IMG/VR virus record: IMGVR_UViG_3300032242_000494
Coordinates: 1-21,504 of that record
Length of the DNA: 21,504 bases
From: a virus
Reading direction: 5' to 3' (one strand)
Shown here: in pieces, positions 2 to 14,636 of the stretch
How the letters are laid out: every line of letters begins with the position of its first letter
Numbering within the stretch: position 1 is the first letter of the stretch
Program-made: the position numbers and the translations under genes
Notes under the pieces: model-generated
Databases searched by the model: none
The model's input: the letters and a program-made list of their open reading frames with translations, nothing else
Told to the model about the DNA's origin: nothing

Positions 2-2275
2 CGAATAATTGATTTCATTGGCAATGAAATGGACCGTCGTGTTAATAACGCTTCAGACCTCTCTCAAGAAATGGTTGCCGCATTAGGTGAGTATGCTGCA
101 GAGCTTGAATATGCACGTGACGAGCTTGAACGTGGCCCACCCCCTGAAGTGCAACGTGCAAACTTGCCTGCACAAGCGCCTGAGCGAGGTGGTCAAACAA
201 CTGAACGCATCACAACAGCAATTCAAACAGCATTTACACCAAACACAGATAGTCCAACTGTTGATGCTTGGTTAGCACAATATGGCAATGTGTTGGCAGA
301 CCAAATAGTCGAGTTTGAAAATGCAGGAAACAATACGGCTGAAGTTGCAAGTTTAATAGACAATGAAATACGTGGTCAGTTGCATAATCTATTACGTTTA
401 GATGAGCAACAAACAGGTCTTACAAGTGCTGAAAACATGATGGCACGCACTCGTCTTGAAACGGCAATGGGCAATATACGGTTTAACGTTATACCGCCTG
501 AGCGAGGTCTTGAACCGCTTGGTGAATTGCCTAATGACTTCTTTGAGCCTGATGCAACGCATCCAGCAAATCAACGCTACACAATGCAAAGTGCAATTGA
601 CATGGCACAAGAGTTGTTTGAGCAAGAACGAATTGATGCCAATAGCTTTGACATACGAAGTATTGAGGACTCAATTCATGCACTTCGTGAAGGCTTGTTT
701 GATGATGAGCGTATTCGTATGCTATCACCAAGAGAACAAGCATCATTCTCAGAAGATGTAGCATTCCGTTTACAGAACATGCTTGACGAGATGCGTGGTC
801 GACAAACTCAGCCAATGAGCTTAAATATGGCATATAACACAGCCGAAAGCTACTTTAATGAGTTACTAGATGACCTAGGTTCAGACCAGAGGTTTGCTGA
901 TCTTGATGATGACGTCAGAAACACCATGGTTGATGAGCAACAAAGAACAATAGCAGAGCAACTTAGAGAAAGTTTGTCCGATGACGACATCTTGCATGTG
1001 CTAAGACGGTTACGTGAAAATCACCCAATACCACATGAATATACTCAGACACCTGATAACGTATTTGGCATACAAGGTCAAGCATTGCCTAGGTCAAATA
1101 CTGCGCTTGAGCAACATTGGCGCAATAATATTTTTAATGGCACTTTAACTGGCAGGCAAACGCTTACACGTCTTAATAGCATCTTAAATAATACAAATCT
1201 AAGTGTAGGAGGCCTGGAATTATTGCGCAGTGTTGTGAATGATCCAGATTCTCCGCAGTTTAGAGGCACAGACGAAGAGACATTAGATCGATACAATGAT
1301 GATATTGATCGTGCAATCAGACAGCGTAACCCCGATGCCATTTCTGAGCGTGACAGAGTCTTGTATGAAGCGTTCAATGATGTTATAGACAATGCTATTG
1401 AAGAAGGCGCGCCTTTGCCTGACCCTACTGATGGTGAAGCATATGCTCAACTTATTTTAGATGATGAGATAGGTGGTGAGTTTACTGAGCTCACAACTGC
1501 GCAACGTAATCGTGTAGCTGACATTGTTAGACGATATGGTGTGGGGGCTACACTTACACCTGAAGGGCAGCGTTTCTTTGAGCAACCTGCGCAGCCAGTG
1601 CGCCCTGCGCCTGCCACCGCACCATATATGCCTATTTCGGCTGAGGTGCATGCAATGTCTGATCGAGCATTAACAGCTGACATGCCTGGTCAACTTGCTG
1701 TGCACAATATGTTTGAATCGCTTACTAATGTAAATTCGCCTGAAGAGCTTCAGAACATTGTAAGTCTCGTACGATCATATGCAATGGGTAGTTGGGAAGA
1801 CTTTTCACCTGAGCAACGTGAGTGGTTGGCACGTAACATTGAAGAATATATTCGTGACAATACGCCACCTGATACACCACCACCTGAAGGCCATAAGGAC
1901 GGTGGCTTGATTCGTACGTACCAAGCCGGTGGGTCAGTAAATGAGAACATTGATGAGTATGGCGAAGAGAATAATGCGCCATTAGATGACTTTGAGCGTA
2001 TGAAGTTGGAAAGATGGATGTCCAAGCATCCTGAGTTTCATGTAGACTCTAAAGAGTTTAATGATGACAACCCAGACGCTGAACGTGATGATGACATACA
2101 CGTCCCAAAAGCAAGTACTTTTGATGGTAAGCTACAAACACCATGGGATGATGATGAATGGGTGATGAGAAACTACATTCGCAAGCATCATATGGAGATG
2201 TTCGCAAACGGTGGTATAGTACACGAAACCCCGAGCCTAGCGCAAATGCGTGCTGCTCTTATGATGCGGAGTTAA
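2..2275 (+). CDS. Large acidic hypothetical phage protein, 5'-partial
   Basis: I do not recognise this family. The frame is open to the first base of the window, so the first in-frame ATG (position 29) is probably internal and the true start lies upstream. The visible 750 or so residues are rich in Asp, Glu, Asn and Arg and look almost wholly helical, with proline-rich breaks near residues 37-50 and 520-540 (counting from the ATG at 29). There are no cysteine clusters, membrane segments or catalytic motifs that I can name. The C-terminal 130 residues are hydrophilic and carry three Gly-Gly motifs: KDGGLI, QAGGSV and FANGGIV. The gene ends one base before the portal start, and the portal ribosome site (ggag, 2268-2271) lies inside it. 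An internal virion or ejection-type protein, or a large polyvalent protein, would fit the position, but this is inference only. Confidence 0.85.
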   Translation, partial: RIIDFIGNEMDRRVNNASDLSQEMVAALGEYAAELEYARDELERGPPPEVQRANLPAQAPERGGQTTERITTAIQTAFTPNTDSPTVDAWLAQYGNVLADQIVEFENAGNNTAEVASLIDNEIRGQLHNLLRLDEQQTGLTSAENMMARTRLETAMGNIRFNVIPPERGLEPLGELPNDFFEPDATHPANQRYTMQSAIDMAQELFEQERIDANSFDIRSIEDSIHALREGLFDDERIRMLSPREQASFSEDVAFRLQNMLDEMRGRQTQPMSLNMAYNTAESYFNELLDDLGSDQRFADLDDDVRNTMVDEQQRTIAEQLRESLSDDDILHVLRRLRENHPIPHEYTQTPDNVFGIQGQALPRSNTALEQHWRNNIFNGTLTGRQTLTRLNSILNNTNLSVGGLELLRSVVNDPDSPQFRGTDEETLDRYNDDIDRAIRQRNPDAISERDRVLYEAFNDVIDNAIEEGAPLPDPTDGEAYAQLILDDEIGGEFTELTTAQRNRVADIVRRYGVGATLTPEGQRFFEQPAQPVRPAPATAPYMPISAEVHAMSDRALTADMPGQLAVHNMFESLTNVNSPEELQNIVSLVRSYAMGSWEDFSPEQREWLARNIEEYIRDNTPPDTPPPEGHKDGGLIRTYQAGGSVNENIDEYGEENNAPLDDFERMKLERWMSKHPEFHVDSKEFNDDNPDAERDDDIHVPKASTFDGKLQTPWDDDEWVMRNYIRKHHMEMFANGGIVHETPSLAQMRAALMMRS

Positions 2276-2276
2276 T

Positions 2277-4808
2277 ATGGCAACTGAAATGCCGATCCCT
2301 CAAGACTTTGGTCGCTTTGTTGGACCCCAGTCAGATGAACAAGAAGACGTGCCTAATGAGTCAATCTTTGAGTTAACGGGTGGCGACTCAGATATTGAAG
2401 AAATGCCTGACGGCTCGGCCATAGTCAGAGACAAGAATCTAGAAGGCCCAGAGCAAGCACCTGATTTCTATGAGAACTTATCCGAGTCCATGGATAGTTG
2501 GGAGCTGGATAAGCTGGCTCTCAAGTATTTGGATCTTATTGAGAAAGACAAGGAAGCCCGTACTGAACGTGATAAGCAGTATGAAGAAGGCATTCGTCGT
2601 ACGGGTTTAGGCCATGACGCTCCGGGTGGAGCACAATTCCAAGGCGCCAGTAAGGTAGTCCATCCTGTTATGGCTGAGGCTTGTGTGGACTTTGCCTCAC
2701 GAGCCATTAAAGAATTGTTTCCACCTGATGGGCCAGTTAGAACCAAGATCATTGGTGAGGTCACAGACGCTAAGACTGAGAAAGCCGAGCGTAAACGTGA
2801 TTACATGAATTGGCAACTTACCGAGCAAATTGAAGAGTATCGTGATGAGCAGGAACAAATGCTCACCCAACTCCCGTTAGGTGGATCCCAATACCTTAAA
2901 CTTTGGTGGGACGAGGATAAGAAACGCCCTTGCGCCGAGTTTGTTCCCATTGACAACATTTACCTGCCTTTTGCGGCGGGTAACTTCTACACTGCTTCAC
3001 GAGTAACTGAGGTTCAAGACATTACGCAAGAGATGTTTGAGCTTCGTATGGCTACAAACTTGTATCGTGATGTGGAGATTTTTAAGGTATCTCAAGAGCC
3101 TGATGAGACCAAGTCAGAAAAAGCCAACAATAAGATTGAAGGCAAGAAGAGTTCTGAGGATAACATTGACGGCGTCCGCCGTGTGTACCACATCCAGACA
3201 TGGATGAACTTGGATGATGATAAGTTTTCAGGCGGAGATCGTGCGCCTTACGTGCTAATGATTGACGAAACATCACGTGATGTGGTAGGTGTATATCGCA
3301 ATTGGGAAAAGGGCGATGACACCATGGCTAAGCTCGATCATATCATCGAGTTTAAGTTCATTCCATGGCGTGGTGCATATGCTATTGGCCTTCCACACTT
3401 AATTGGGGGCTTGGCTGCAGCATTGACCGGTGCTCTTCGTGCTTTGCTTGACAGCGCGCATATCAATAATGCGCCAACTATGCTCAAGTTGAAAGGTGCT
3501 AAGATCAGCGGGCAAAGCACAAGCATCGAGCCAACACAGATTGCTGAGATTGAAGGCGCACCGGGTGTGGATGACGTTCGCAAGATCGCAATGCCTATCC
3601 CGTTTAACCCGCCCTCACCGATTTTGTTCCAAATGTTGGGCTGGCTTACAGATCAAGCCAAAGGTGTGGTCACTACTGCCGAAGAAAAGATTGCAGACGT
3701 CACAAGCAATGCACCGGTTGGTACTACACAAGCACTAATTGAGCAAGGCTCAGCGGTCTTTAGTTCAATCCATGCACGATTGCACACTAGCCAAGCACGA
3801 GTTTTGAAAGTTTTGGCCCGTTTGAACCGCTGGTACTTGGATGAGCAGGCCAAGGGTGAGATTGTCCGTGATATTCCTATCGTATCTACAGATTTTGATA
3901 GCAATACAGACGTTGTACCGGTTTCAGACCCACATATATTCGCGGAGTCACAACGTTATGCACAGATCCAGACTCTTGCCACACGAGCACAAGCCAATCC
4001 TGATCTCTATAATCGATTGGCTGTGGAAAAACGGATTCTTAAGCAAATCAAGCTTCCCGACGTCAATGAAGTTCTCCCTGACCCGCAAGATGTGAAAGAT
4101 ATGAACCCAGCTTTGGAGAATGTGTCCATGGCTTTAGGCAAACCTGCAGGCGCTTACCCCGCGCAGGATCATATTGCACATATGCTTACGCATCTTAGCT
4201 ATGGACTTGATCCTTTGTTAGGCGCCAGCCCAATTATGGCGCCTACATTCATACCACAGTGTCTTGAGCATGTAAAACAGCATTTGAACTTATGGTACCT
4301 TAACCAAATAGATACGTATGGCTCTGTGGCCCTCAAGAAGCCTCTGGATATCTATAAAGTAGCATCAATTACTCAAGAAGCGCAAAAGCTTATTGCCGGT
4401 GCATCACAACACGTTCATCAAGACAGTCAAGAACAAATGGCGCAGATTGGACAAACGGTCATGAAGATGATAGGGCAGTTGCAGCAGATGAAGCAACAGC
4501 AACAACCACAAGACCCCGCTGTTCAAGCTTTGGTACAAACACAAATGGCTGAGACACAGCGCAGAGCAGCACGTGATCAAGCAGAAATGCAACTTAAGGG
4601 TCAGCAATTACAAATTGATGCTACTTTGGAAACGCAAAAAATGCAAAGTGAAAGTCTACAGGCTACTGAGAAGAACCTTACGGACGAAAGAATTAAGTCG
4701 GCTGAGATTACGCGTGACGCCGCCCAACTGCAACATGAGCAACTGCAGACGGTCATCGATGCTCAAAATCAACTGCAATCTAACATTGGAGGACAAACAA
4801 ATGTCTGA
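2277..4808 (+). CDS. Portal protein (P22-like, podovirus type)
   Basis: The portal forms the dodecameric ring at one head vertex through which the terminase pumps DNA and to which the tail attaches. The 843-residue product has an acidic N-terminal 70 residues, then a helical region with the conserved block GASKVVHPVMAEACVDFA (residues 123-140) followed by RAIKELFPP, a signature I associate with large podovirus portals. The middle holds mixed alpha/beta sequence with many Trp and Pro. Roughly residues 700-843 are a long Gln-rich coiled coil that could form a C-terminal barrel as in P22 gp1. The protein is longer than P22 portal (about 725 residues). The start ATG at 2277 follows ggag at 2268-2271. 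The stop codon overlaps the start of the next gene. Position just before scaffold and capsid genes supports the call. Confidence 0.88.
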   Translation: MATEMPIPQDFGRFVGPQSDEQEDVPNESIFELTGGDSDIEEMPDGSAIVRDKNLEGPEQAPDFYENLSESMDSWELDKLALKYLDLIEKDKEARTERDKQYEEGIRRTGLGHDAPGGAQFQGASKVVHPVMAEACVDFASRAIKELFPPDGPVRTKIIGEVTDAKTEKAERKRDYMNWQLTEQIEEYRDEQEQMLTQLPLGGSQYLKLWWDEDKKRPCAEFVPIDNIYLPFAAGNFYTASRVTEVQDITQEMFELRMATNLYRDVEIFKVSQEPDETKSEKANNKIEGKKSSEDNIDGVRRVYHIQTWMNLDDDKFSGGDRAPYVLMIDETSRDVVGVYRNWEKGDDTMAKLDHIIEFKFIPWRGAYAIGLPHLIGGLAAALTGALRALLDSAHINNAPTMLKLKGAKISGQSTSIEPTQIAEIEGAPGVDDVRKIAMPIPFNPPSPILFQMLGWLTDQAKGVVTTAEEKIADVTSNAPVGTTQALIEQGSAVFSSIHARLHTSQARVLKVLARLNRWYLDEQAKGEIVRDIPIVSTDFDSNTDVVPVSDPHIFAESQRYAQIQTLATRAQANPDLYNRLAVEKRILKQIKLPDVNEVLPDPQDVKDMNPALENVSMALGKPAGAYPAQDHIAHMLTHLSYGLDPLLGASPIMAPTFIPQCLEHVKQHLNLWYLNQIDTYGSVALKKPLDIYKVASITQEAQKLIAGASQHVHQDSQEQMAQIGQTVMKMIGQLQQMKQQQQPQDPAVQALVQTQMAETQRRAARDQAEMQLKGQQLQIDATLETQKMQSESLQATEKNLTDERIKSAEITRDAAQLQHEQLQTVIDAQNQLQSNIGGQTNV
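4788..4793 (+). promoter_or_regulatory. Ribosome binding site ggagga for the 4801 gene
   Basis: The sequence ggagga lies seven bases before the ATG at 4801, inside the end of the portal gene. It decides that start against an upstream in-frame ATG at 4573. The extension from 4573 would run through portal coding sequence and has a shadow-like Arg/Lys/Leu composition. Confidence 0.7.
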
Positions 4809-5085
4809 AGCAATTAATGCGCATAAAAAAATGGCAATGGGTATTACCGAGGGTAATGTCATGAAAAAAGGCGGCAAAGTTCAAAAGTATGCCATGGGTG
4901 GTAAAGTAATGTCCGAAGGCGGAGTAGCAAACCTACCTGCAATGGGTGACAAACGAAACACTGGTGTTGACTTTAATGCCGGCAAGTCAAAGATTGCTAC
5001 CATGAAAAAAGGTGGCATGGCAAAAGGCCCAGGCTTGATGATTGCTATTGCGATGCCTAAAAAGTCATCTGGTCGAGGACGCTAA
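4801..5085 (+). CDS. Small basic Gly/Lys-rich protein with Gly-Gly motifs
   Basis: The 94-residue protein has no recognised fold or function. It is rich in Lys, Gly, Met and Ala. It carries MKKGGKV, AMGGKV, SEGGVA and MKKGGMA, so nearly the whole chain consists of short basic Gly-Gly segments. The C-terminus is very basic (PKKSSGRGR). The first of these motifs closely resembles LKKGGSV...AMGGI in the basic protein at 9855-10322, suggesting related or co-functioning proteins. The start at 4801 is set by a ggagga ribosome site. The gene overlaps the portal by 8 bp and the next gene by 1 bp (TAATG), so translation of the three is probably coupled. A small head-interior or portal-associated protein is possible, but that is position-based inference. 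Confidence 0.75.
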   Translation: MSEAINAHKKMAMGITEGNVMKKGGKVQKYAMGGKVMSEGGVANLPAMGDKRNTGVDFNAGKSKIATMKKGGMAKGPGLMIAIAMPKKSSGRGR

Positions 5086-5270
5086 TGCGCGTCAGCGATC
5101 TCATCGCCCGTATTAAAGTTGAGCAGGCCCAAATTACTACAGTTCTACAAGCTGGAACTTCAGTCAATTTTGAGTCTTATCAACGCTTAGTCGGGCACTA
5201 CCAAGGCTTGGATGAAGCTTTGAATATTATCAACCAACTTCTAAATGAGGATGACCAAGATGTCGAATGA
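5085..5270 (+). CDS. Small helical phage protein, function unknown
   Basis: The 61-residue protein looks like two amphipathic helices separated by a short link (SVNFESYQRLVGHYQGLDEA), with an acidic tail (NEDDQDVE). Small proteins of this pattern, with a 'FE-YQ-LVG' segment between two helices, occur near portal genes in aquatic phages as far as I recall, and none has a role I know. The start overlaps the previous stop by one base (TAATG), a typical translational coupling arrangement. The 3' end overlaps the co-chaperonin gene by 11 bp. No cysteines, signal peptide or membrane segment are present. Confidence 0.72.
   Translation: MRVSDLIARIKVEQAQITTVLQAGTSVNFESYQRLVGHYQGLDEALNIINQLLNEDDQDVE
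5247..5250 (+). promoter_or_regulatory. Ribosome binding site gagg for the co-chaperonin gene
   Basis: Three in-frame ATG codons lie at 5245, 5251 and 5260. The gagg motif at 5247-5250 is nine bases from the ATG at 5260, but would overlap or abut the other two. This favours 5260 and gives a product beginning MSNDIEQ. Confidence 0.55.
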
Positions 5271-5682
5271 TATCGAGCAAACGCTTGCAGAAGCGTTTCC
5301 AACTGTAGATCCACTAATGGCACCATATGGTGCGCGTATCCTTGTGCAGCTTCGTGCTGTCAAAGATAAAGTAACTGCTTCAGGAATTTACATTCCCGAG
5401 GAAACTAAAGAGACCGAGAAATGGAATACCATGATCGGCAAAGTGATTGCTATCGGACCCTTGGCTTTTCGCAAACGTGAAAGCATGGAACCATGGCCCG
5501 AAGGGGCTTGGGCTCAAGTAGGTGAATACGTGAGAGTTCCTAAATGGGGTGGCGATCGCTGGGAAATTGACTTTACGGATGAGAAAGGCATAGCAGGCAA
5601 ATGCTTGTTTACGTTTTTCAATGACCATGAGTTGATTGGCAAAGTCACGGGTGATCCTCGTGACATTAAAGCGTTTATCTAA
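5260..5682 (+). CDS. GroES-like co-chaperonin (phage-encoded)
   Basis: The 140-residue protein matches the GroES/Cpn10 fold pattern. A first strand (GARILVQLRAVKDKV, from residue 24) leads into a mobile-loop-like segment (TASGIYIPEETKE) with the hydrophobic tripeptide IYI at residues 43-45, where GroES has IVL for binding GroEL. Next come GKVIAIGP (like GEVLAVG), VGEYVRVPKWGG (like VGDIVIFNDG) and a final strand region, CLFTFFNDHELIGKV. It is longer than bacterial GroES (about 97 residues) and phage T4 gp31 (111 residues), mainly because of insertions near residues 68-88 and 100-115. T4 gp31 replaces GroES so that host GroEL can fold the T4 major capsid protein. The position between portal and capsid genes suggests the same role. 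Expression is probably coupled to the upstream gene by the 11 bp overlap. Confidence 0.85.
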   Translation: MSNDIEQTLAEAFPTVDPLMAPYGARILVQLRAVKDKVTASGIYIPEETKETEKWNTMIGKVIAIGPLAFRKRESMEPWPEGAWAQVGEYVRVPKWGGDRWEIDFTDEKGIAGKCLFTFFNDHELIGKVTGDPRDIKAFI

Positions 5683-5703
5683 GTTTTTGAAAGGAAAACT
5701 GCA

Positions 5704-6681
5704 ATGACACCAACTGAAAAGGCAGAAATGCATGTTGATGAGAACCAAGACGGCTCTGCCGTAGTTCAACTCTCTGCAGATCAATCGCCAAATGATATTG
5801 ATGACGACCATGATGAAGGTGATAACACACCTGAAACTGCGTCAAACGTAGATGATGGTGAAGACCAAGGCGTAAGCCCTGATCGTGAGGCAATTCGTGC
5901 CGCTCGTCGTGAAGAACGCCAGCTTAAGAAGCATCTTCATCGTGAAAAGGCTCGAGAGTCTAATCATCTAATCTCTGCCTTGCGTAAACAGAACCAAGCA
6001 TTGGCTGAGCGCATTGCAATTGTTGAGAAGCATACATCAGGTGCCGAGCTTGCACGTGTAGACAAGGCAATTGAAGATGCCAGTGTACAGGTTGAGTTTG
6101 CCAAGATGAAGATGCAAGAGTCAGTGAACTCACGTAATGGTGCGGAGTTAACAAAGGCACAAGAACTCTGGTTTGACTCACGCCGTAAGCTTGAGTCTTT
6201 GCAGATGATGAAAGACACTGCCACTCGTAGCACTCAACAATCACAACAGAATATACCCGATCCAGTTGTGCAAAAAATGGCATCAGACTGGGTCGAACGT
6301 AATCCTTGGTATGACCCACAAGGTAAGAACATTGAGTCCAGTATTGCGCAAAAGATTGACAAGCAACTTCATGAAGAAGGCTTTGATCCTGTTTCTGAAG
6401 ATTACTGGGAAGAACTCGATGGCCGTATGCAAAAATATTTACCGGATTCTAAAAGCCGTGTATATAATGCACCCACTGGTCAAACAGAAAGGCGCCGTTC
6501 AACGATGACGAGCTCAGGACGTGATAGCATGCCATCCGCAAAGCCGGGCGAGTTTATACTCAGCCCCGACCGCGTTGCTGCGATGAAAGAAGGCGGTTTG
6601 TGGGATAACCCAAAACTGCGTCAAAAAGCTATCGACAACTACCGTTCATGGGATCGTAACAATCGTAATCAAAGGAGCTAA
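5704..6681 (+). CDS. Probable capsid scaffolding protein
   Basis: Scaffolding proteins guide capsid protein into a procapsid and then leave or are degraded. The 325-residue product has the typical layout. The N-terminus is acidic and disordered (about residues 10-60, many Asp/Glu). A long charged coiled coil follows (about 62-175). A Trp-containing segment (SDWVERNPWYDP, 194-205) and a basic Ser/Arg-rich linker precede a short C-terminal helix region, EFILSPDRVAAMKEGGLWDN (283-302). The C-terminal end of scaffolds often binds capsid protein. Start ATG 5704 follows aaagga at 5690-5695. It lies directly upstream of two head genes and the capsid gene, the usual scaffold position. I see no protease motif, so maturation proteolysis is not evident here. 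Confidence 0.8.
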   Translation: MTPTEKAEMHVDENQDGSAVVQLSADQSPNDIDDDHDEGDNTPETASNVDDGEDQGVSPDREAIRAARREERQLKKHLHREKARESNHLISALRKQNQALAERIAIVEKHTSGAELARVDKAIEDASVQVEFAKMKMQESVNSRNGAELTKAQELWFDSRRKLESLQMMKDTATRSTQQSQQNIPDPVVQKMASDWVERNPWYDPQGKNIESSIAQKIDKQLHEEGFDPVSEDYWEELDGRMQKYLPDSKSRVYNAPTGQTERRRSTMTSSGRDSMPSAKPGEFILSPDRVAAMKEGGLWDNPKLRQKAIDNYRSWDRNNRNQRS

Positions 6682-6683
6682 TT

Positions 6684-7217
6684 ATGGATGACCGTTTAAA
6701 GAAAAATGTAAATGCTGGTCGCGAATCTCGTGCGCGTGAAGACGCCTCTCGTCGCGGCCCTGAAGAACATATGGTTTCTTCCGAGGAACGTCGCAGAATG
6801 TTCCGCTCGGAGTGGCTTCAAGAAGCGCTTCCGACTCCACCCCCTATAAAGGGGTTTCACCTGTGCTGGTTATCTACAACTAACCAATATGATCCTATCC
6901 ATAAACGTATGCGCATGGGCTATGAACCTGTAAAAGCTGAAGATCTAGAAGGCTTTGAACAATACAAGGTGAAAGCTGGCGAACATGCGGGATTCGTATC
7001 CTGTAACGAAATGGTTCTCTATAAGATGCCTGAGGAAATTTTCCAAGAGATTATGGCCGAAATGCATCACTATGCTCCTATGGATGAGCAAGAGAAAATT
7101 AAAGTACAACAGGATCAATTGATTGAAGCTTCTCGCGACAGTCATGGGCGCTCATTGGTGCAAGTTGAAAATGCCAGTCTATCATCTGATCGAAGTGTCA
7201 AAGCACCTCTTTTTTAA
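6684..7217 (+). CDS. Conserved phage head-module protein, function unknown
   Basis: The 177-residue protein starts with a very basic, Arg-rich 45 residues. A compact middle follows with the block CWLSTTNQYDPIHKRMRMGY (61-80), and a helical C-terminal half (EEIFQEIMAEMHHY...). I have a sense that this block is conserved in proteins lying between scaffold and capsid genes of aquatic phages, but no function is known to me. A single Cys at residue 61 and another near 110 do not form a zinc site. The ATG follows aaaggag at 6671-6677, two bases after the scaffold stop. A minor head protein or assembly factor is the most natural reading of the context. Confidence 0.75.
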   Translation: MDDRLKKNVNAGRESRAREDASRRGPEEHMVSSEERRRMFRSEWLQEALPTPPPIKGFHLCWLSTTNQYDPIHKRMRMGYEPVKAEDLEGFEQYKVKAGEHAGFVSCNEMVLYKMPEEIFQEIMAEMHHYAPMDEQEKIKVQQDQLIEASRDSHGRSLVQVENASLSSDRSVKAPLF

Positions 7218-7226
7218 GGAGCCTCT

Positions 7227-7841
7227 ATGAGTGCAACATCTGCTCCGTTCGGCTTACGTCCTGCGTTCCATCCTTCTGGTTTGGATCGTGCTCAGGCGCT
7301 GGCTGGCGGTATCGTCTCTGGTTATGCCACAGACATTTTAAAAGGCGCACCTGTGCGCTACAATAGCACTGCCGGCACATCTGTCGCCGCTGGTACTATT
7401 ACAAACGCTGCTGCTAGTGGCGCTTGGTCCGGTGCTTTTGCCGGTGTGGAATGGACTGATACAACAGGCCGTCGTCGTGTAAGTAACTACTGGCCTGCCA
7501 GTACTGCGTATACAACCGGTTCATGTATCGCTTATTTCTACAACGATGCAAACATCGTTTATGAAATCCAAACTGACGCAACTATTGCTCAAACTTCTTT
7601 GGGTGGCGAATACAACTTCAGTGCAAACACTGGCTTTACCGTAACTTCTGGCTCAAATACAACTGGCTTGTCAACGACAGGTTTAGGTGTATCTACAGCT
7701 GTGGCTGATGGTTCACAAGGTAGTATGCGTGTAGTTGATATTGCACCATACCCTGATAACAACTGGGGTGACTCCTATGTTATCGTTCGCGTTGTCAATG
7801 CACGTTCTCAGTACTTCGGTTCTGTGACTGCGATCGTTTAA
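7227..7841 (+). CDS. Virion structural protein, head decoration candidate
   Basis: The 204-residue protein is rich in Thr, Ser, Gly and Ala with alternating hydrophobic residues, as in beta-sandwich virion proteins. It opens with SAPFGLRPAFHPSG (residues 5-18), an opening I associate with small structural proteins encoded next to capsid genes, and it continues with SGYATDILKGAPV, a strand-turn-strand region. There are no cysteines or membrane segments apart from a single Cys near residue 104. The start follows aaggag at 7216-7221. Sitting 16 bp before the major capsid gene, in the position where small head-stabilising proteins are often encoded, it may coat the capsid surface. A minor head protein is the main alternative. 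Confidence 0.72.
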   Translation: MSATSAPFGLRPAFHPSGLDRAQALAGGIVSGYATDILKGAPVRYNSTAGTSVAAGTITNAAASGAWSGAFAGVEWTDTTGRRRVSNYWPASTAYTTGSCIAYFYNDANIVYEIQTDATIAQTSLGGEYNFSANTGFTVTSGSNTTGLSTTGLGVSTAVADGSQGSMRVVDIAPYPDNNWGDSYVIVRVVNARSQYFGSVTAIV

Positions 7842-7857
7842 TAGAAAGGAGTAAGCA

Positions 7858-8772
7858 ATGGCCGCTCCAATGCGCAGTACGGACTTTAGAAGTATTGTTG
7901 AACCAATTCTCAACGAAGCTTTCGATGGAGTCTATGACCAACGTGCCGATGAATGGTCCACGGTTTTCCGTGAACAAACAGGCATTCCACGTAACTACCA
8001 TGAAGAACCCGTCTTGTATGGTTTCGGTGCAGCGCCTCAGTTACCTGATGGCTCACCCGTTACCTATCAACAAGGTGGCGTACTCTTCTTACAACGCTAT
8101 GTCTACCAAGTCTTCGGTCTTGCTTTTGCATTGACCAAAGTGTTGGTTGAAGATGGCGATCACATCCGTTTGGGTCAAGTTTATGCCAAGCACTTGGCAC
8201 AATCTTTGGTGGAAACTAAAGAATTGCTGTGTGCTAACATCTTGAACCGCGCCTTCAACAGCTCGTATGTTGGTGGTGATGGCGTGTCGCTAATTAGCAC
8301 AGCGCACCCAATCGTAAGTGGTACAGTGTCTAATCAACTAAGCACTGCAGCTAACTTATCACAAACGTCACTCGAGCAAATGCTTATCCAAATCCGTCAG
8401 GCTGTGGATAACAACGGTAAGAAGATTCGTTTACAACCTACTAAACTTGTCGTTGCCCCCGGTAACGTTTTCCAAGCTGAAGTATTGTTGAAATCAGTCT
8501 TACGTACCGGAACCGCTAACAACGACATCAACCCAATTAAATCAATTGGTTTGTTGCCTGAAGGCGCTTCGGTAATTTCTCGTTTGACTTCTGCTACTAA
8601 CTGGTGGGTTGAAACCGATGCACCAGAAGGTATGAAGCTGTTGATGCGTCGCGGCTTAGAGAAGACTATGGAAGGTGACTTCGAAACTGATAGCATGCGC
8701 TATAAGGCTACCGAACGTTACATCCCAGGTTGGACTGATTGGCGTGCCATGTACGGCACACCTGGCGTTTAA
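7858..8772 (+). CDS. Major capsid protein
   Basis: This 304-residue protein should form the icosahedral shell. Its features fit an HK97-fold capsid protein, perhaps nearest the Mu gpT-like group. An N-terminal helical arm leads to an extended-loop-like stretch around residues 50-80 ([11 protein letters not shown]...TYQQGG). A long spine helix with charged residues follows (about 98-135), then the ISTAHP motif (146-151), a second helix (about 170-185) and a C-terminal beta region ending with [10 protein letters not shown]. It follows scaffold and decoration-type genes, has the strongest ribosome site of the region (aaaggag, 7845-7851), and is followed at once by a strong terminator, as expected for the most highly expressed virion gene. 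I see no N-terminal propeptide or fused protease. Confidence 0.87.
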
Positions 8773-8783
8773 GCCACCAAGTA

Positions 8784-8813
8784 GGGGAGGGGCTAAAACC
8801 TCTCCCCTTTTTT
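8784..8813 (+). terminator. Intrinsic terminator after the major capsid gene
   Basis: A nine-pair stem pairs 8784-8792 (ggggagggg) with 8799-8807 (cctctcccc), with one G-T wobble. It has a six-base loop and is followed by six T residues at 8808-8813. It begins 11 bases after the capsid stop codon. It would end or attenuate transcripts carrying the head module. Confidence 0.9.
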
Positions 8814-8832
8814 AAATCTGATCAAGCTTTTC

Positions 8833-8838
8833 AAGGAG
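8833..8838 (+). promoter_or_regulatory. Ribosome binding site aaggag for the 8847 gene
   Basis: The motif is eight bases before the ATG at 8847. It shows that translation starts after the terminator hairpin and not at an in-frame ATG at 8739, which lies inside the capsid gene. Confidence 0.75.
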
Positions 8839-8846
8839 AAGATCAA

Positions 8847-9842
8847 ATGCCTCAATTTTCAGACGACCTATTCTTAGGTTCCGCTCCTACCGCTATGGGT
8901 ACAGCTTCGTATCCTACAAGCGGTACTTTTACTGGCTCAATTGCAACAACCACTTTGACAATCACTGCTGTATTGCAAGGTGATCCTATTGCTATTGGTC
9001 AATGGGTTAACGGTACTGGCGTAACTGCTGGTACATACATTACTGGCTACGGTACTGGTACAGGTGGTGCTGGTACATACACCGTTAACGTATCTCAGAC
9101 CGCATCTAGCACAACCATCTACACACAAGGTCAAGCCATTCTAGGCGACCCTTCATTGATGCCATTAGGCATTGGCCCAATGGGTCGTGTCTACACGTTT
9201 GACGTTGTCCCTTTGACTGCAAACGCCGCAAACATTTGTGCATCACAGACCCCTGCCGCCGCAGGCGCACTTACATTGCTAACAACTAGCACATTGGGTG
9301 GCAAGCGTGTTACTCGTTCTGATGGTCAAACTGTTACTCAGTTAGACACTCCACGCACTTTAGTAGTGACAACTGGAACTGGTACAACTACTAGCTCAAG
9401 CATTACTATTACAGGTTGGGATCAATACGGTCAATCCATGAGTGAAGTTATTGTTTCTGGGACGGTTGCATCAACCGCAACAGAAGGCAAAAAAGCTTTT
9501 TACCAAATTTTGAGCGTTGTTGGTACTGCGGCTACTACATCAACAATTACTGTTGGTACAACTTATACCCTTGGTATTCCTATGCGCATTACTAACGGCA
9601 CATATTTATGCCACGTTGGGTGGGATTCTGGTTTTGCTATTGACACAGGCACTTTGAATGTCGCCGATACAACAAACCCAGCAACTACTACCACTGGTGA
9701 CGTACGCGGGACTTTTAAACCATCCACTGCCGCCAACGGTATTAAGCGTTTATGTCTCGGCATTATGCTTCCAGCTATTGCCGCAGGCCCAAATGCAACA
9801 CGTCTTGGCGCCGTTGGTGTAAACCAAAACTTAGTGTCCTAA
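8847..9842 (+). CDS. Threonine-rich virion structural protein
   Basis: The 331-residue protein is dominated by Thr, Gly, Ser, Ala and Val in alternating patterns typical of beta-rich virion proteins. Residues about 25-92 form a compact Gly/Thr module ([17 protein letters not shown]...[20 protein letters not shown]). I recognise it as a domain found inserted in many phage and prophage structural proteins. The remainder (about 100-331) includes [20 protein letters not shown] and a C-terminal [20 protein letters not shown] and may be the family-specific core. No membrane segment or enzyme motif is visible. It lies between two terminators with one small basic protein, so the pair may form a separate transcription unit. 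A capsid decoration or head-fibre role is plausible; a tail protein is possible. Confidence 0.72.
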
Positions 9843-9854
9843 TAGGAGAATACC

Positions 9855-10322
9855 ATGGGTGAATTTAAACTAATGCCAAAGATGAAAACCACTGAGCCTT
9901 CAGCTATTCTGAAGCTTAAAAAAGGTGGTTCTGTAAAGAAAGCTATGGGAGGTATTCTTCCGATGGCTGATTCTGAAAAAGGTGTACCTACTGCAGCTCG
10001 TCGCGGTGTTGCGCCTGCAATGCCTAAACGCGGTGCGTATATGGGTGGTATGCCTATGCGTTCAGAGACTGGGCCTGTGATGCGCAAAGAAGGTGGTGAA
10101 ACTAAAGCCACACAGAAAGCTGAGATGAAAGCCATTAAAGGCATAAAATCAGAGTTATCATCGCATGAAGGCAAGCCTGCCAGTAAAGCGCATAAAGGTT
10201 TAAAAACCGGCGGTGTTATCAATGGCTATAAGACAGGTGGTGTCACCAATGGCTATAAAACTGGTGGTATTGCCGAAGTAGAAGGCAAAAACTACAAGCG
10301 TGGTGGTAAAGCAAATTGCTAA
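9855..10322 (+). CDS. Basic Gly/Lys-rich protein with Gly-Gly repeats
   Basis: The 155-residue product is strongly basic and low in complexity, with no known fold. It has LKKGGSVKKAMGGI near residues 20-34, a Pro/Arg/Gly-rich middle (RRGVAPAMPKRGAYMGGMP), a Lys/Glu helix-like stretch (about 75-105), two nine-residue tandem repeats (KTGGVINGY and KTGGVTNGY) with a partial third copy, and a final YKRGGKANC. It shares the KKGG...AMGG pattern with the small basic protein at 4801-5085. The ATG follows taggaga (9843-9849) and the gene ends five bases before a terminator. A DNA-contacting internal head protein would suit the charge, but nothing in the sequence proves it. Confidence 0.75.
   Translation: MGEFKLMPKMKTTEPSAILKLKKGGSVKKAMGGILPMADSEKGVPTAARRGVAPAMPKRGAYMGGMPMRSETGPVMRKEGGETKATQKAEMKAIKGIKSELSSHEGKPASKAHKGLKTGGVINGYKTGGVTNGYKTGGIAEVEGKNYKRGGKANC
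10203..10271 (+). repeat. In-frame 27-bp tandem repeat, 2.5 copies
   Basis: Units 10203-10229 and 10230-10256 encode KTGGVINGY and KTGGVTNGY. A partial third unit (10257-10271, KTGGI) follows. The copies differ mainly at third codon positions, so they are not a recent perfect duplication, and selection seems to keep the peptide. Copy number could vary between related phages. Confidence 0.85.
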
Positions 10323-10326
10323 AACT

Positions 10327-10352
10327 GTAGGGGCTATGTGCCCCTACTTTTT
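10327..10352 (+). terminator. Intrinsic terminator before the 885-aa structural gene
   Basis: A perfect eight-pair stem pairs 10327-10334 (gtaggggc) with 10340-10347 (gcccctac), with a five-base loop and a run of five T residues at 10348-10352. It starts five bases after the stop of the basic protein gene and fills most of the gap before the next start at 10370. Confidence 0.88.
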
Positions 10353-10369
10353 AACAGAATAGGTGAAAT

Positions 10370-13027
10370 ATGTCGCAACTCGTTACGTACACTGGCCCAA
10401 GTAGCCAAACAGATAATCAATTACGCACACAGACGTCATCACGTTCTGCGGCATACGATCCAGTAGATAAACTGCGCGTATCGCAACCTCAAGCACTAAT
10501 TGATACCGACTTTGAATATGGTCAACAGCCAACTAAGTGGGAATCAATTAACCTACAAAACAATCGTCAGGGCGCGTATTACATTCCACAGGTATATACG
10601 ACTATTGACAATAGCGCGTCAAATAAAGGCATTCAAACTACAAATGCCAGCCGTACTGTTACGGTTTATATGACTGACACAAGTGCATATACAGTAGGTA
10701 TTCCAATTTTTATTCAAGGTGCAACAAACCCCAATTTGAATGGTTGGTGGTTAGTGAATACTGTAAACACAAATGCCTCTGTTGTCTTTTTAATTGATGC
10801 CAACGCTACAGCAACGACTAACGTATTTAACCCCGGTAAGACGTATGTGTACCCCGGTTATTTCTATAGCAACTGTGGATTTCAAGTAGGTTCAAACTGC
10901 ATTACTGCAAGCGCAACTACTACCCCACTTTGCACTACCACATATGCTCATGGTTTGAACGTAGGTGATTACATTTACATGATTGGTTTTGCGGGAGATA
11001 CAAACGTAAACGGCGCATGGATTGTTGCTACAACGCCAACTGCCAGCACTTTTACTTTCACAACTGCTGTAGCAGTAACCAGCCCAACAAACAGCGCAGG
11101 TCAAGGAAACGTCTATATGCGTCCTGCTGGATGGGTTGAGTCTCGTCCATACGATGGCGGTGTTGCGTTCTCTGCTGGAGGAACAATTACCAACCAACAG
11201 TTAATTCGTCAGACACGTCGTTATTTCCGCTATCAGTCTGGTAAAGGTATCCAATTCTCAACTGGTTCTTCACTTCAGCCAACATTGTTCCAACCTGTTT
11301 TGACAGCTGCAGGAACCACTGTAACGGTAACAACTTCTGCCCCCCATAACTTGGCTGTTGGTACAACAATCCAAGTTTCTGGTGCAACTCCAACACAATA
11401 CAACGGTACTTTTACAATTGGTTCTGGCGGCTTTACCAAGACTACATTTCAGTATTCAACTTCTGTAATTAACACACCGCCATCAACTCCAGCGACTGGT
11501 AACTCAATTCGAGTAAACCCAACCATTTGGTATGGCGCACAAAACTCAGTTGGCATTTTTGACCAGCAAAACGGAATTTTCTTCCAATATGATGGTCAAC
11601 AGTTATACGCAGTGGTTCGTAATTCAACTATTCAAACTGCTGGATACGTTCAAGTTACGCAGGGCAACGCAACGGTTACTGGTGTTGGTACAAACTTTAC
11701 AACAGCGTTGACGCCTGGTCAGTTCTGCGTAATCCGTGGGCAGTCATATCGTGTTATTGCTATTGCAAGCGATACGTCGTTAACTATTGCGCCTGAATAT
11801 CGTGGCAACTCATACAATTCAACGAACTCGCCAAACGGCGGATACATCATGTCTGTAACAACAGACACAAAGTATCCACGTTCTACTTGGTTTGATCCTA
11901 TGGATGGCACAGGCCCATCGGGTTACAACCTTGATCTGTCGCGTATGCAAATGTTCTACATCGACTACTCTTGGTACGGTGCAGGCTCAATTCGTTGGGG
12001 CTTCAGAGGTCAAAGCGGTGCGGTAACATATTGCCATCAAGTACAGAATAATAACCTTCAATACGAAGCGTATATGCGTTCTGGTAACTTGCCAGCGCAC
12101 TATGAGTCTTCTGGCTTGACGCCAACTACTTATTTGACTTCTTCAATTGGTACTGGTGACACTACTATTCCCGTAGCGGATACTAGCCAATTTAATTCAA
12201 GTGGCACTGCAAAAATTACTGGAAGTGGCGCGGCTGGTGTTGTTGAATACGTTACCTACACGGGCAAAACTTCAACATCACTTACTGGATGCACCCGTGG
12301 TGCTACTGGGGGATCTGCGGCTACTGCGTTTACCTATAGCGCAACAGCGTTTGTCACTGTTGAGTACGCTACCCAAGACTCTGTACCTTCAATTTCGCAC
12401 TGGGGCTCATCAGTCATTATGGATGGTCAGTTCAACGATGATAAATCGTTGATTTTCAACTATGGAATGACAACTCCATTGACGGTCTCTACTGCTGGCT
12501 CTTACGCTTTAATGGCAATCCGTATTGCGCCTTCTGTAGACAACGGAACAACTAGCACTCTTGGTTTGAAAGAAAATATCAACCGTATGCAGTTGCAACT
12601 TGACTCGGTGTCAATCATTGCATCTACTTCACAAGTTTTAATTAACTTGATTTTAAATGGTCGTCTTGCGGCGGCGTTTTCTGGAACTGGCGCTGTGACG
12701 TCTTTTGTTTCTCCTCAGCAACTTGCTGGTGGATTTACTTCCTCATTGGCGCAGATTGCGGTAAATGGAGCGACAGGGACAACCGCAACTATTACAGGTG
12801 GCGAGTCATTGGCGGCGGCTTACGTTCCAATCGGCATCAACACTTTGGATTTGAGTAACGTGCGTGACTTGGGTAACTCAATCTTAGGTGGTGGTGTAAA
12901 TAACACTGTGCCAACTACGCAAGCAGGTTTGTACCCAGACGGCCCAGACATACTTTATGTTGTTGCAACTACAACAGGCGCTTGTTCTATTCAAGCGCGT
13001 TTGTCTTGGAAAGAAGCTCAGGCTTAA
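10370..13027 (+). CDS. Large mosaic virion structural protein
   Basis: The 885-residue protein begins with KLRVSQPQALIDTDFEYGQQ (34-53) and WESINLQNNRQGAYYIPQVY. I associate this N-terminal block with virion structural proteins of cyanophages and other aquatic phages. Inside it I see three copies of a beta module with a 'VG...I...G......NG.w.V' pattern (about residues 108-143, 194-231 and 326-362). There is also a 'GNATVTGVGTNFT...ALTPGQFCVIRG' module (431-456) and a 'TTIPVADTSQF...EYVTYTGKT...LTGCTRGATG' module (about 595-648). The core seems to resume between and after them (WFDPMDGTGPSGYNLDLSRM; HWGSSVIMDGQFNDDKSLIF). No enzyme motif is seen. A tail, baseplate or neck-appendage role is likely from context, but the exact location is unknown. 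Confidence 0.75.
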   Translation: MSQLVTYTGPSSQTDNQLRTQTSSRSAAYDPVDKLRVSQPQALIDTDFEYGQQPTKWESINLQNNRQGAYYIPQVYTTIDNSASNKGIQTTNASRTVTVYMTDTSAYTVGIPIFIQGATNPNLNGWWLVNTVNTNASVVFLIDANATATTNVFNPGKTYVYPGYFYSNCGFQVGSNCITASATTTPLCTTTYAHGLNVGDYIYMIGFAGDTNVNGAWIVATTPTASTFTFTTAVAVTSPTNSAGQGNVYMRPAGWVESRPYDGGVAFSAGGTITNQQLIRQTRRYFRYQSGKGIQFSTGSSLQPTLFQPVLTAAGTTVTVTTSAPHNLAVGTTIQVSGATPTQYNGTFTIGSGGFTKTTFQYSTSVINTPPSTPATGNSIRVNPTIWYGAQNSVGIFDQQNGIFFQYDGQQLYAVVRNSTIQTAGYVQVTQGNATVTGVGTNFTTALTPGQFCVIRGQSYRVIAIASDTSLTIAPEYRGNSYNSTNSPNGGYIMSVTTDTKYPRSTWFDPMDGTGPSGYNLDLSRMQMFYIDYSWYGAGSIRWGFRGQSGAVTYCHQVQNNNLQYEAYMRSGNLPAHYESSGLTPTTYLTSSIGTGDTTIPVADTSQFNSSGTAKITGSGAAGVVEYVTYTGKTSTSLTGCTRGATGGSAATAFTYSATAFVTVEYATQDSVPSISHWGSSVIMDGQFNDDKSLIFNYGMTTPLTVSTAGSYALMAIRIAPSVDNGTTSTLGLKENINRMQLQLDSVSIIASTSQVLINLILNGRLAAAFSGTGAVTSFVSPQQLAGGFTSSLAQIAVNGATGTTATITGGESLAAAYVPIGINTLDLSNVRDLGNSILGGGVNNTVPTTQAGLYPDGPDILYVVATTTGACSIQARLSWKEAQA

Positions 13028-13028
13028 T

Positions 13029-13574
13029 ATGCCAAGTAAATCACCTGCGCAACATCGGTTGATGGTAGCTGCCGCTCACACAAAGGGCGGCTTTGGTGGT
13101 GTGCCTCAAAAAGTCGGCAAAGAGTTTGCAAAGGCTGATGAGGGTAAAAAGTTTAAAAATGGTGGTTTATATGACAACATTCATGCAAAACAGCAAAGAA
13201 TTGCTCATGGCTCTGGTGAAAAGATGCGTAGAGTTGGTAGCAAAGGCGCGCCAACGGCTGCAGACTTTAAGGCAGCGGCAAAAACAGTAAAGATGTCTAA
13301 AGGGGGAGATCCTGTGCTTTCTGTTAGTAGAGGGGAAAAATTACCCACTAATCGCGGAGCAGGGTTGACTCAGAAGGGTCGAGACAAGTTTAATAACGCA
13401 ACCGGTAGTAACCTTAAAGCCCCACAAGCAAAGGGTCCACGACATGATAGTTTTTGTGCTAGAATGAGTGGCATGCCGGGGCCTATGAAAGATGACAAGG
13501 GTCGTCCAACTCGTAAAGCTGCATCTTTAGATCGTTGGCATTGCTCAACAGGTGGCAAAATTAAAGGCTGGTAA
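13029..13574 (+). CDS. Basic three-module protein with DUF6321-like C-terminus
   Basis: The 181-residue product seems to be built from three short basic modules. Residues 1-38 (SKSPAQHRLMVAAAH...VGKEFAKAD) resemble small DUF3008-like phage proteins. Residues 43-85 contain NGGLYDNIHAKQQRIAHGSG and a KGAPTAADFK stretch. Residues 110-172 (LTQKGRDKFNNATGSNLKAP, then SFCARMSGMPGPM...KGRPTRKAASLDRWHC) match my memory of the DUF6321 pattern. It ends GGKIKGW. Cysteines at 143 and 172 are too few for a classic zinc site. The start at 13029 is chosen because the upstream in-frame extension lies inside the previous gene. The first base of the ATG is two bases after the previous stop. Function is unknown; the high positive charge could favour DNA or acidic-protein contact. 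Confidence 0.75.
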   Translation: MPSKSPAQHRLMVAAAHTKGGFGGVPQKVGKEFAKADEGKKFKNGGLYDNIHAKQQRIAHGSGEKMRRVGSKGAPTAADFKAAAKTVKMSKGGDPVLSVSRGEKLPTNRGAGLTQKGRDKFNNATGSNLKAPQAKGPRHDSFCARMSGMPGPMKDDKGRPTRKAASLDRWHCSTGGKIKGW

Positions 13575-13577
13575 AAC

Positions 13578-14636
13578 ATGAGCACAAGCGGTACTGTTGG
13601 CCAAACTGTTATATCAGTCCAAAACATGATCGACCATGGGGCTCGCCGTGCTGGTAAACTAGCCGAAGAGCTTACAGACGAGCAGGTACTATCTGCAAAA
13701 GATAGTCTTTGGTTTTTGCTATCAAACATGGCAAACCGTGGTATTCAATACTGGTGTATTGTTAAAAATATTATGGGTATGCAGCCAGAGCAGCAAACAT
13801 TTTATTTGCCAGTTGGTACTGTAGATATTTTGAATGCTAACTATCGCACGTTAACTACAAATACTACCAACGCATATTCTACTTCTGGTACTGCATCTAA
13901 CGCATTTAATGGCATAGGCACTTCCGTTTGCCAGTTAACTAATAACACTGGATCGATTGGCATTGCACCTACTTCTGCATCGCCTGTCTACATTGCATCA
14001 ATTGGTATTTTGCCTGCAATTACAGGCTCTGTAACAGTTGTGCTGCAGTATTCACAAGATGGCATAACTTGGGTAACTGCTCTTTCTCCCGGTGCCGTAG
14101 ATTGGTCAAGCAATGTATGGTTATACTATGATTTGCCTGATAGCTCTAATGCAGGCTACTGGCGCATTCAGCAAACTGCTGGGGCTAATATGGGTGTGTA
14201 TCAAGTGGTTTTTGGTAGCAACCCCATGGAAATCCCCATGGCTCGTATGAATCGAGATGACTACGTTAACCTCCCAAATAAGAGCTTTACAAATAATTAC
14301 CCATTGCAATACTGGTTTGATCGAAACATTCCACAACCTGCAATGTATGTTTGGCCTGTGCCTGCAACGTTTTCACCTCAAATCGTGGCATGGTGCCATA
14401 GGCAAATTCAGGATGTAGGTGATCTCAATGGCGAGCTGGAAATCCCTCAGCGATGGTATCTGGCCATTCAGAACATGTTGGCGCATCAAATGTCTATGGA
14501 ACTTCCAAACGTGGATATGACACGTATTCAGTATTTGGAAAGCCAGTCTGAAAAGTATTGGAACATGGCGGAGCAAGAAGAGAGGGATAAGAGCCCAATC
14601 TATTTTGCGCCTAACATTAGTCCGTACACACGATGA
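13578..14636 (+). CDS. Head-tail connector, P22 gp4-like, with inserted discoidin-like domain
   Basis: The 352-residue product has an N-terminal helical part (VISVQNMIDHGARRAGKLAE...AKDSLWFLLSNMANRG) and a C-terminal part typical of gp4-type tail accessory or connector proteins: DDYVNLPNKSFTNNYPLQYW, then MYVWPVP, a RWYLAIQNMLAHQM helix with a Pro-Asn-Val-Asp turn, and EQEERDKSPIYFAPNISPY. In P22, gp4 binds the portal and helps close the filled head. Between these parts, residues about 95-213 look like a separate beta domain (TVVLQYSQDGITWVTAL; GYWRIQQTAGANMGVYQVVF), close in pattern to F5/8 type C (discoidin) carbohydrate-binding domains. The gene overlaps the next by 4 bp (ATGA). I am fairly sure of the connector core and less sure of the insert. 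Confidence 0.72.
   Translation: MSTSGTVGQTVISVQNMIDHGARRAGKLAEELTDEQVLSAKDSLWFLLSNMANRGIQYWCIVKNIMGMQPEQQTFYLPVGTVDILNANYRTLTTNTTNAYSTSGTASNAFNGIGTSVCQLTNNTGSIGIAPTSASPVYIASIGILPAITGSVTVVLQYSQDGITWVTALSPGAVDWSSNVWLYYDLPDSSNAGYWRIQQTAGANMGVYQVVFGSNPMEIPMARMNRDDYVNLPNKSFTNNYPLQYWFDRNIPQPAMYVWPVPATFSPQIVAWCHRQIQDVGDLNGELEIPQRWYLAIQNMLAHQMSMELPNVDMTRIQYLESQSEKYWNMAEQEERDKSPIYFAPNISPYTR

Follow-up and report, generated by a model that had tools for sequence, protein, structure and literature searches.

Why a short Gly-Gly element should recur in otherwise different proteins of one phage is the question raised by the window analysed here. The window corresponds to an entire virus record (21,504 bases), itself probably a fragment, and carries the head and tail-start genes of a tailed phage from fresh water, all listed ones lying on the plus strand (Table 1). 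The preliminary description had reported the element in a large acidic protein and in the products of three further genes, referred to here as 4801, 9855, and 13029. All motifs it had listed lie in frame and at the positions given for them, and 9855 contains two more (YMGGMP at 10038 and KEGGET at 10086). The capsid protein of the window shares 86% identity with MW202545 (Manatee Spring) and 78% with Caulobacter phage RW, and a set of 80 related IMG/VR loci was retrieved via this protein. When solved structures were searched by sequence, neither the capsid protein nor the adaptor protein had a usable relative among them.

Table 1 Genes of the window and the Gly-Gly elements located in them
Feature	Position	Strand	Description
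Large acidic protein	2..2275	+	C-terminal 757 aa, net charge -71; slot directly upstream of portal
KDGGLI	1895-1912	+	Large acidic protein
QAGGSV	1922-1939	+	Large acidic protein
Doubled motif KDGGLIRTYQAGGSV	1895..1939	+	9-residue distance between the GG pairs, also seen in 4801 and 9855
ANGGIV	2204-2221	+	Large acidic protein
C-terminal bipartite tag FANGGIVHETPSLAQMRAALMMRS	2201..2274	+	GG motif and putative helix; end includes stop codon
Portal	2277-4808	+	
Gene 4801	4801..5085	+	Basic, predicted disordered 94-aa protein encoded between the portal and GroES genes; GG motifs conserved at three sites
Doubled motif KKGGKVQKYAMGGKV	4864..4908	+	4801
KKGGKV	from 4864	+	4801
AMGGKV	from 4891	+	4801
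SEGGVA	from 4912	+	4801
KKGGMA	5005..5022	+	4801; both Gly invariant in 39 homologues
GroES-like	5245-5682	+	
Scaffold-like protein	5704-6681	+	
KEGGLW	6586-6603	+	GG near C-terminus of scaffold-like protein
Major capsid protein	7858-8772	+	Phage_capsid_4/Mu gpT type
YQQGGVLF	8068-8085	+	One conserved motif-shaped site in major capsid protein
Gene 9855	9855..10322	+	155-aa basic protein, largely GG motifs
Doubled motif KKGGSVKKAMGGIL	9918..9959	+	9855; GG pairs 95-100% conserved
KKGGSV	from 9918	+	9855
AMGGIL	from 9942	+	9855
KTGGVI, KTGGVT, KTGGIA	10203..10274 (starts 10203, 10230, 10257)	+	9855; 9-residue spacing, GG 93-100% conserved
C-terminal KRGGKA	10296..10313	+	9855; GG 90-92% conserved
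Gene 13029	13029..13574	+	181-aa basic protein, N-terminal phrog_16759-type module and C-terminal DUF6321; doubtful motif carrier
KNGGLY	from 13155	+	13029
SKGGDP	from 13296	+	13029
STGGKI	from 13545	+	13029
Tail adaptor counterpart	13578-14636	+	Counterpart in one relative annotated as tail adaptor

We counted the pattern (K/A/R/Q)xGG(not G or P)(V/I/A/L/M/T/Y) and compared its frequency with that in shuffled sequences. When local composition was kept, 0.17, 0.40, and 0.31 motifs were expected for the window large protein, 9855, and 4801, in which 3, 7, and 3 were found, respectively, whereas the window protein of 13029 showed no enrichment in the same type of shuffle (1 versus 0.31 expected, P = 0.26). 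Across homologues, the excess over composition shuffles amounted to 13.4-fold for 4801 and 14.5-fold for 9855, and it was still 11.7- to 13.3-fold when shuffling was confined to 20-residue blocks; the last 120 residues of the large-protein family likewise showed an 11.7- to 13.3-fold excess over such block shuffles. The observation is real, and could be confirmed in part: the claimed recurrence in four proteins holds for the large acidic protein, 4801, and 9855, at about 12-fold over shuffles rather than at the chance frequency that would speak against a motif, and does not extend to 13029. No motif excess over shuffles was seen in the families of the portal, GroES, adaptor, and tail fibre proteins, and in the capsid family the excess came from one conserved site only. 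The capsid proteins of the three long relatives likewise each contain this YQQGGVLF-type site.

Conservation of the Gly pairs, which the preliminary description had named as a check, was borne out for most pairs of the large protein, 4801, and 9855. The three conserved pairs of 4801 reached 100/77%, 100/100%, and 100/100% in 39 homologues, and of the eight pairs that the window copy of 9855 contains, seven were 90-100% conserved in 59 homologues; the EGGVA pair of 4801 (8-18%) and a previously unlisted MGG at residue 64 of 9855 (19-27%) were poorly conserved. Residues G737 and G738 of the large protein (window numbering) were nearly invariant in an alignment of 33 relatives with a mean column identity of 10%. 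At the conserved GG positions of 4801 and 9855, two to four synonymous Gly codons (GGC, GGT, GGA, GGG) were used, indicating that selection acts on the protein. Conservation also reached beyond the Gly pair to positions -3, -2, and +3, yielding the common logo (Y/M/F)-(K/A)-x-G-G-x-(V/I/A), with V preferred at +3 and K frequent at -2 and -1. Motifs are often doubled, with a preferred spacing of 8-9 residues across families, and the 9-residue spacing is found in the large protein, 4801, and 9855 of the window. Separately, the N-terminus of 4801 carries the element IN.HK..AM, (near-)invariant in 29 aligned homologues and as strongly conserved as the GG pairs.

For 13029, the pairs 45/46 and 92/93 were 81-90% conserved and the pair 175/176 only 29%, so that this part of the original claim is weak: sites are conserved while the motif is not enriched. 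The protein matches DUF6321 (PF19846, 71.1 bits versus a cut-off of 28.5, residues 109-170), and its conserved GG pairs may simply belong to its own protein family. It should be removed from the motif set or kept only as doubtful. Its N-terminal module reads MPSKSxxQHRLM...VGKEFxxAD; each of the two modules matches families that join it to other phage proteins, and DUF6321 is absent from some relatives.

The large acidic protein is cut by the window edge, so that only its last 757 residues were seen, and it stops one base ahead of the portal start. Relatives in this slot, hereafter called leads, are 700-2400 aa long; annotated ones are large proteins between terminase and portal, such as the protein annotated as PcfJ-like in phage DSL-LC04. 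Domains detected in slot relatives comprise PcfJ (7), ART-PolyVal (4), LPD23, GH108 lysozyme, and others, while the edge-cut 757 residues of the window gave no effector or LPD domain and no family match above cut-off. In position and size, though with the window copy cut, the slot proteins agree with polyvalent proteins, large multidomain proteins beside portal or terminase genes that carry ART-PolyVal, LPD, or lysozyme domains and that Iyer et al. (2017) proposed to be packaged in heads and injected (PMC5512222). The passages considered here name no Gly-Gly tag, the words 'glycine' and 'sequence motif' are absent from the text of the paper, and it makes no mention of PcfJ.

The placement of the motif in these proteins is mostly terminal: 62 of 82 non-redundant slot proteins carry it within the last 60 residues, whereas it occurs in 8.1% of 60-aa windows elsewhere and in 2.3% of shuffled sequences. 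Six of the remaining 20 have a near variant, and about six resemble terminase genes of phages without a lead gene. More than 20 leads, including the window protein, end in the bipartite tag GGxV..PS(L/I)(D/E)QMRxxLMMRxK, the second part of which reads PS(L/I)(D/E)QM(R/K)(Y/F)(A/E)LMMRxK or a near form. Without their last 60 residues, 119 of 210 pairs of tag-bearing leads had no BLAST similarity and 41 further pairs had less than 25% coverage, i.e., the slot proteins bear the element at the terminus of otherwise unrelated cargo, as capsid-targeting signals do. ART-bearing relatives in many contigs have the GG motif too, with at least five different C-terminal sequences, among them KKRRGGLTAMSR, FAEGGSVQAYDADRIDAIVNQFM, and FKAGGTVSGLS.

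Of the functions raised in the preliminary description, a docking tag for one partner fits best and is partly supported, because unrelated proteins share one logo, the large proteins place the motif C-terminally, and it is carried by proteins of the virion module or proteins predicted to be injected. We tentatively favour, at somewhat short of even confidence, that cargo of the virion interior carries the motif as a short linear docking tag, recognised by a common partner and acting in packaging. Beyond the recurrence, conservation, shared logo, C-terminal placement, and carrier type established by computation, we infer that the carriers lie inside the virion, that the motif binds, and that it sorts cargo in packaging. 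The tag, (Y/M/F)(K/A)xGGx(V/I/A), would sit on flexible tails or linkers of proteins that the phage lineage places inside the virion. Its chief user would be the large polyvalent protein between terminase and portal, usually GG-ended whatever its enzymatic cargo, and in the subgroup of the window the GG motif would be followed by the short putative helix PSxxQMRxxLMMR; 4801 and 9855, with multiple copies, could act as multivalent partners or be internal proteins packaged alongside the cargo. While the head is being assembled, one common partner in the procapsid interior (portal, scaffold, shell interior, or the multivalent GG proteins) would recognise the motif, and the cargo would be retained and later ejected with the DNA. 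Several points go against a docking tag. Leads also carry GG motifs between domains, which a pure C-terminal packaging tag does not predict; in one lead (L278), NSG replaces the C-terminal Gly pair; the tag-like element of the close relative MW202545 is internal; and the ejection proteins of T7 and SU10 are free of the motif.

Four other readings find less support in our ranking. The GG motif could instead bind DNA or other nucleic acid, with basic GG proteins coating or neutralising packaged DNA and cargo riding the genome. The strongly basic charge of the 4801, 9855, and 13029 proteins (+13, +19, and +24, respectively), the frequent K next to the Gly pair, and the K- and H-rich 9855 homologues fit this explanation, but what the sites have in common is the Gly pair with hydrophobic residues at -3 and +3, a large number of sites in leads and ejection proteins are not basic (FAEGGSV, YAGGGIA), and lead tails are nearly neutral (0.015 per residue), making DNA binding unlikely. 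Some 9855 homologues are extremely histidine-rich next to their GG motifs (L029:5173-6345, L017:12042-13127), which may reflect metal binding or a pH response. A contig binned into the beta-proteobacterial genome Kiruna2_bin-0444 (L218) has the same head module and a 9855-type protein, possibly a hint at the host or a co-binned phage.

In three long relative contigs, the motif was nearly limited to leads, 4801, 9855, a tape-measure-like ejection protein, and the one capsid site, with isolated single matches in replication and early genes. The ejection protein, whose profile match is to tape measure proteins, carries the GG motif mostly 95-111 aa from the C-terminus in its homologues. In tape measure and ejection proteins, a motif of this shape directly precedes the C-terminal domain GPGTGxSDxIPAMLxxGEYVF, which is itself absent from 4801, 9855, and the leads. 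This recurrence in ejection-type proteins and predicted injected effectors would suit an action after ejection, in which the motif binds a host factor or membrane or aids passage through the ejection channel. However, family searches found no known effector domain in 4801 and 9855, and the ejection proteins of T7 and SU10 lack the motif; we regard post-ejection action as distinctly unlikely. As a separate matter, the motif is not a general requirement for ejection, given its absence from the T7 and SU10 proteins, and a universal ejection signal was judged less likely.

Annotated phages varied in the slot. MW202545, DSL-LC04, and Pelagibacter phage HTVC027P have large slot proteins bearing GG motifs, and neither a large slot protein nor a GG-repeat protein was found in Caulobacter RW, Roseobacter CRP-902, and Alcaligenes QDWS535. 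In Planktothrix phage Pag-Yong1, the large slot protein is missing, but one protein has a doubled C-terminal motif. A DNA scan of IMG/VR for the paired form GGxVxKYAxGGxV, as in the doubled motif of 4801, detected at least 120 viral contigs, all with the match in frame within open reading frames. Among the matches listed, the proteins form at least 55 groups that show no BLAST similarity to one another. Those members that are annotated are tape measure, PcfJ, and virion structural proteins, and many of the proteins have KKYASGGSVSSASKRADGIAQRGKTKG or a similar sequence some 34 residues before the C-terminus. Across 84,980 genomes of bacteria and archaea, the paired form matched three times: once in this phage type, once in a tape measure protein, and once by chance. 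A widespread C-terminal tail, KxGGxVKKYASGGSVSSASKRADGIAQRGKTKG with variants, occurs on many unrelated proteins of uncultured aquatic phages (L118, L113, L168, and others); two carriers of such a tail had no match in the annotated phage collection, against which the 4801 protein and short consensus peptides gave nil or very weak matches.

One tail on many unrelated proteins is also what would be seen if the motif were a flexible hinge or low-complexity element with no particular partner that recombination of tails had distributed among phage genes, and AlphaFold models of 4801 and 13029 are of low confidence (mean pLDDT 55.7 and 52). A purely low-complexity origin, one of the options first raised, is nevertheless improbable because of the 12-fold excess over local shuffles and the invariance of the Gly pair despite synonymous codon change, and the preferences for V at +3 and Y/M/F at -3 and the C-terminal placement also stand against it. 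Proteolytic processing at GG, splitting polyvalent proteins or maturing head proteins, is very improbable: double-glycine cleavage is known from other systems and the motif often lies between lead domains, but small carriers (9855 homologues) have up to about 20 copies, a C-terminal cut would release merely 11-30 residues, family searches of the window turned up no separate prohead protease family among the genes from portal to adaptor, and conservation extends to -3, -2, and +3.

The putative docking tag can be set beside known ways of loading a head. The T4 capsid targeting signal is processed by the prohead protease; for the GG tag, in contrast, no protease was found between portal and adaptor, and its function here is putative. 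In T4 internal proteins and P1 DarB, a short sequence directs cargo into the head before ejection (PMC9024508), and the GG motif may be analogous in sending cargo into the head, although the T4 and P1 signals differ in sequence and the motif here is mostly C-terminal in large proteins and repeated in small ones. SU10, like T7, has a short-tailed virion with internal proteins that are ejected (PMC9509320), in which the window phage is predicted to resemble them, yet without a GG motif on these proteins, unlike the carriers described here. Searching literature full text for the motif peptide strings identified no relevant paper.

How effectors are selected for packaging and injection is understood in just a few model phages, such as T4, P1, and N4. 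It is conceivable, though doubtful, that the GG tag serves a large group of aquatic tailed phages as a general, previously undescribed code for loading cargo. Polyvalent effectors, tape measure or ejection proteins, and small, basic, multivalent hub proteins would then carry it and together form an interchangeable system by which the virion is stocked with proteins for injection. Should the GG element act as such a signal, injected proteins would become predictable from sequence in many uncultured phages, and one simple mutational test would be available.
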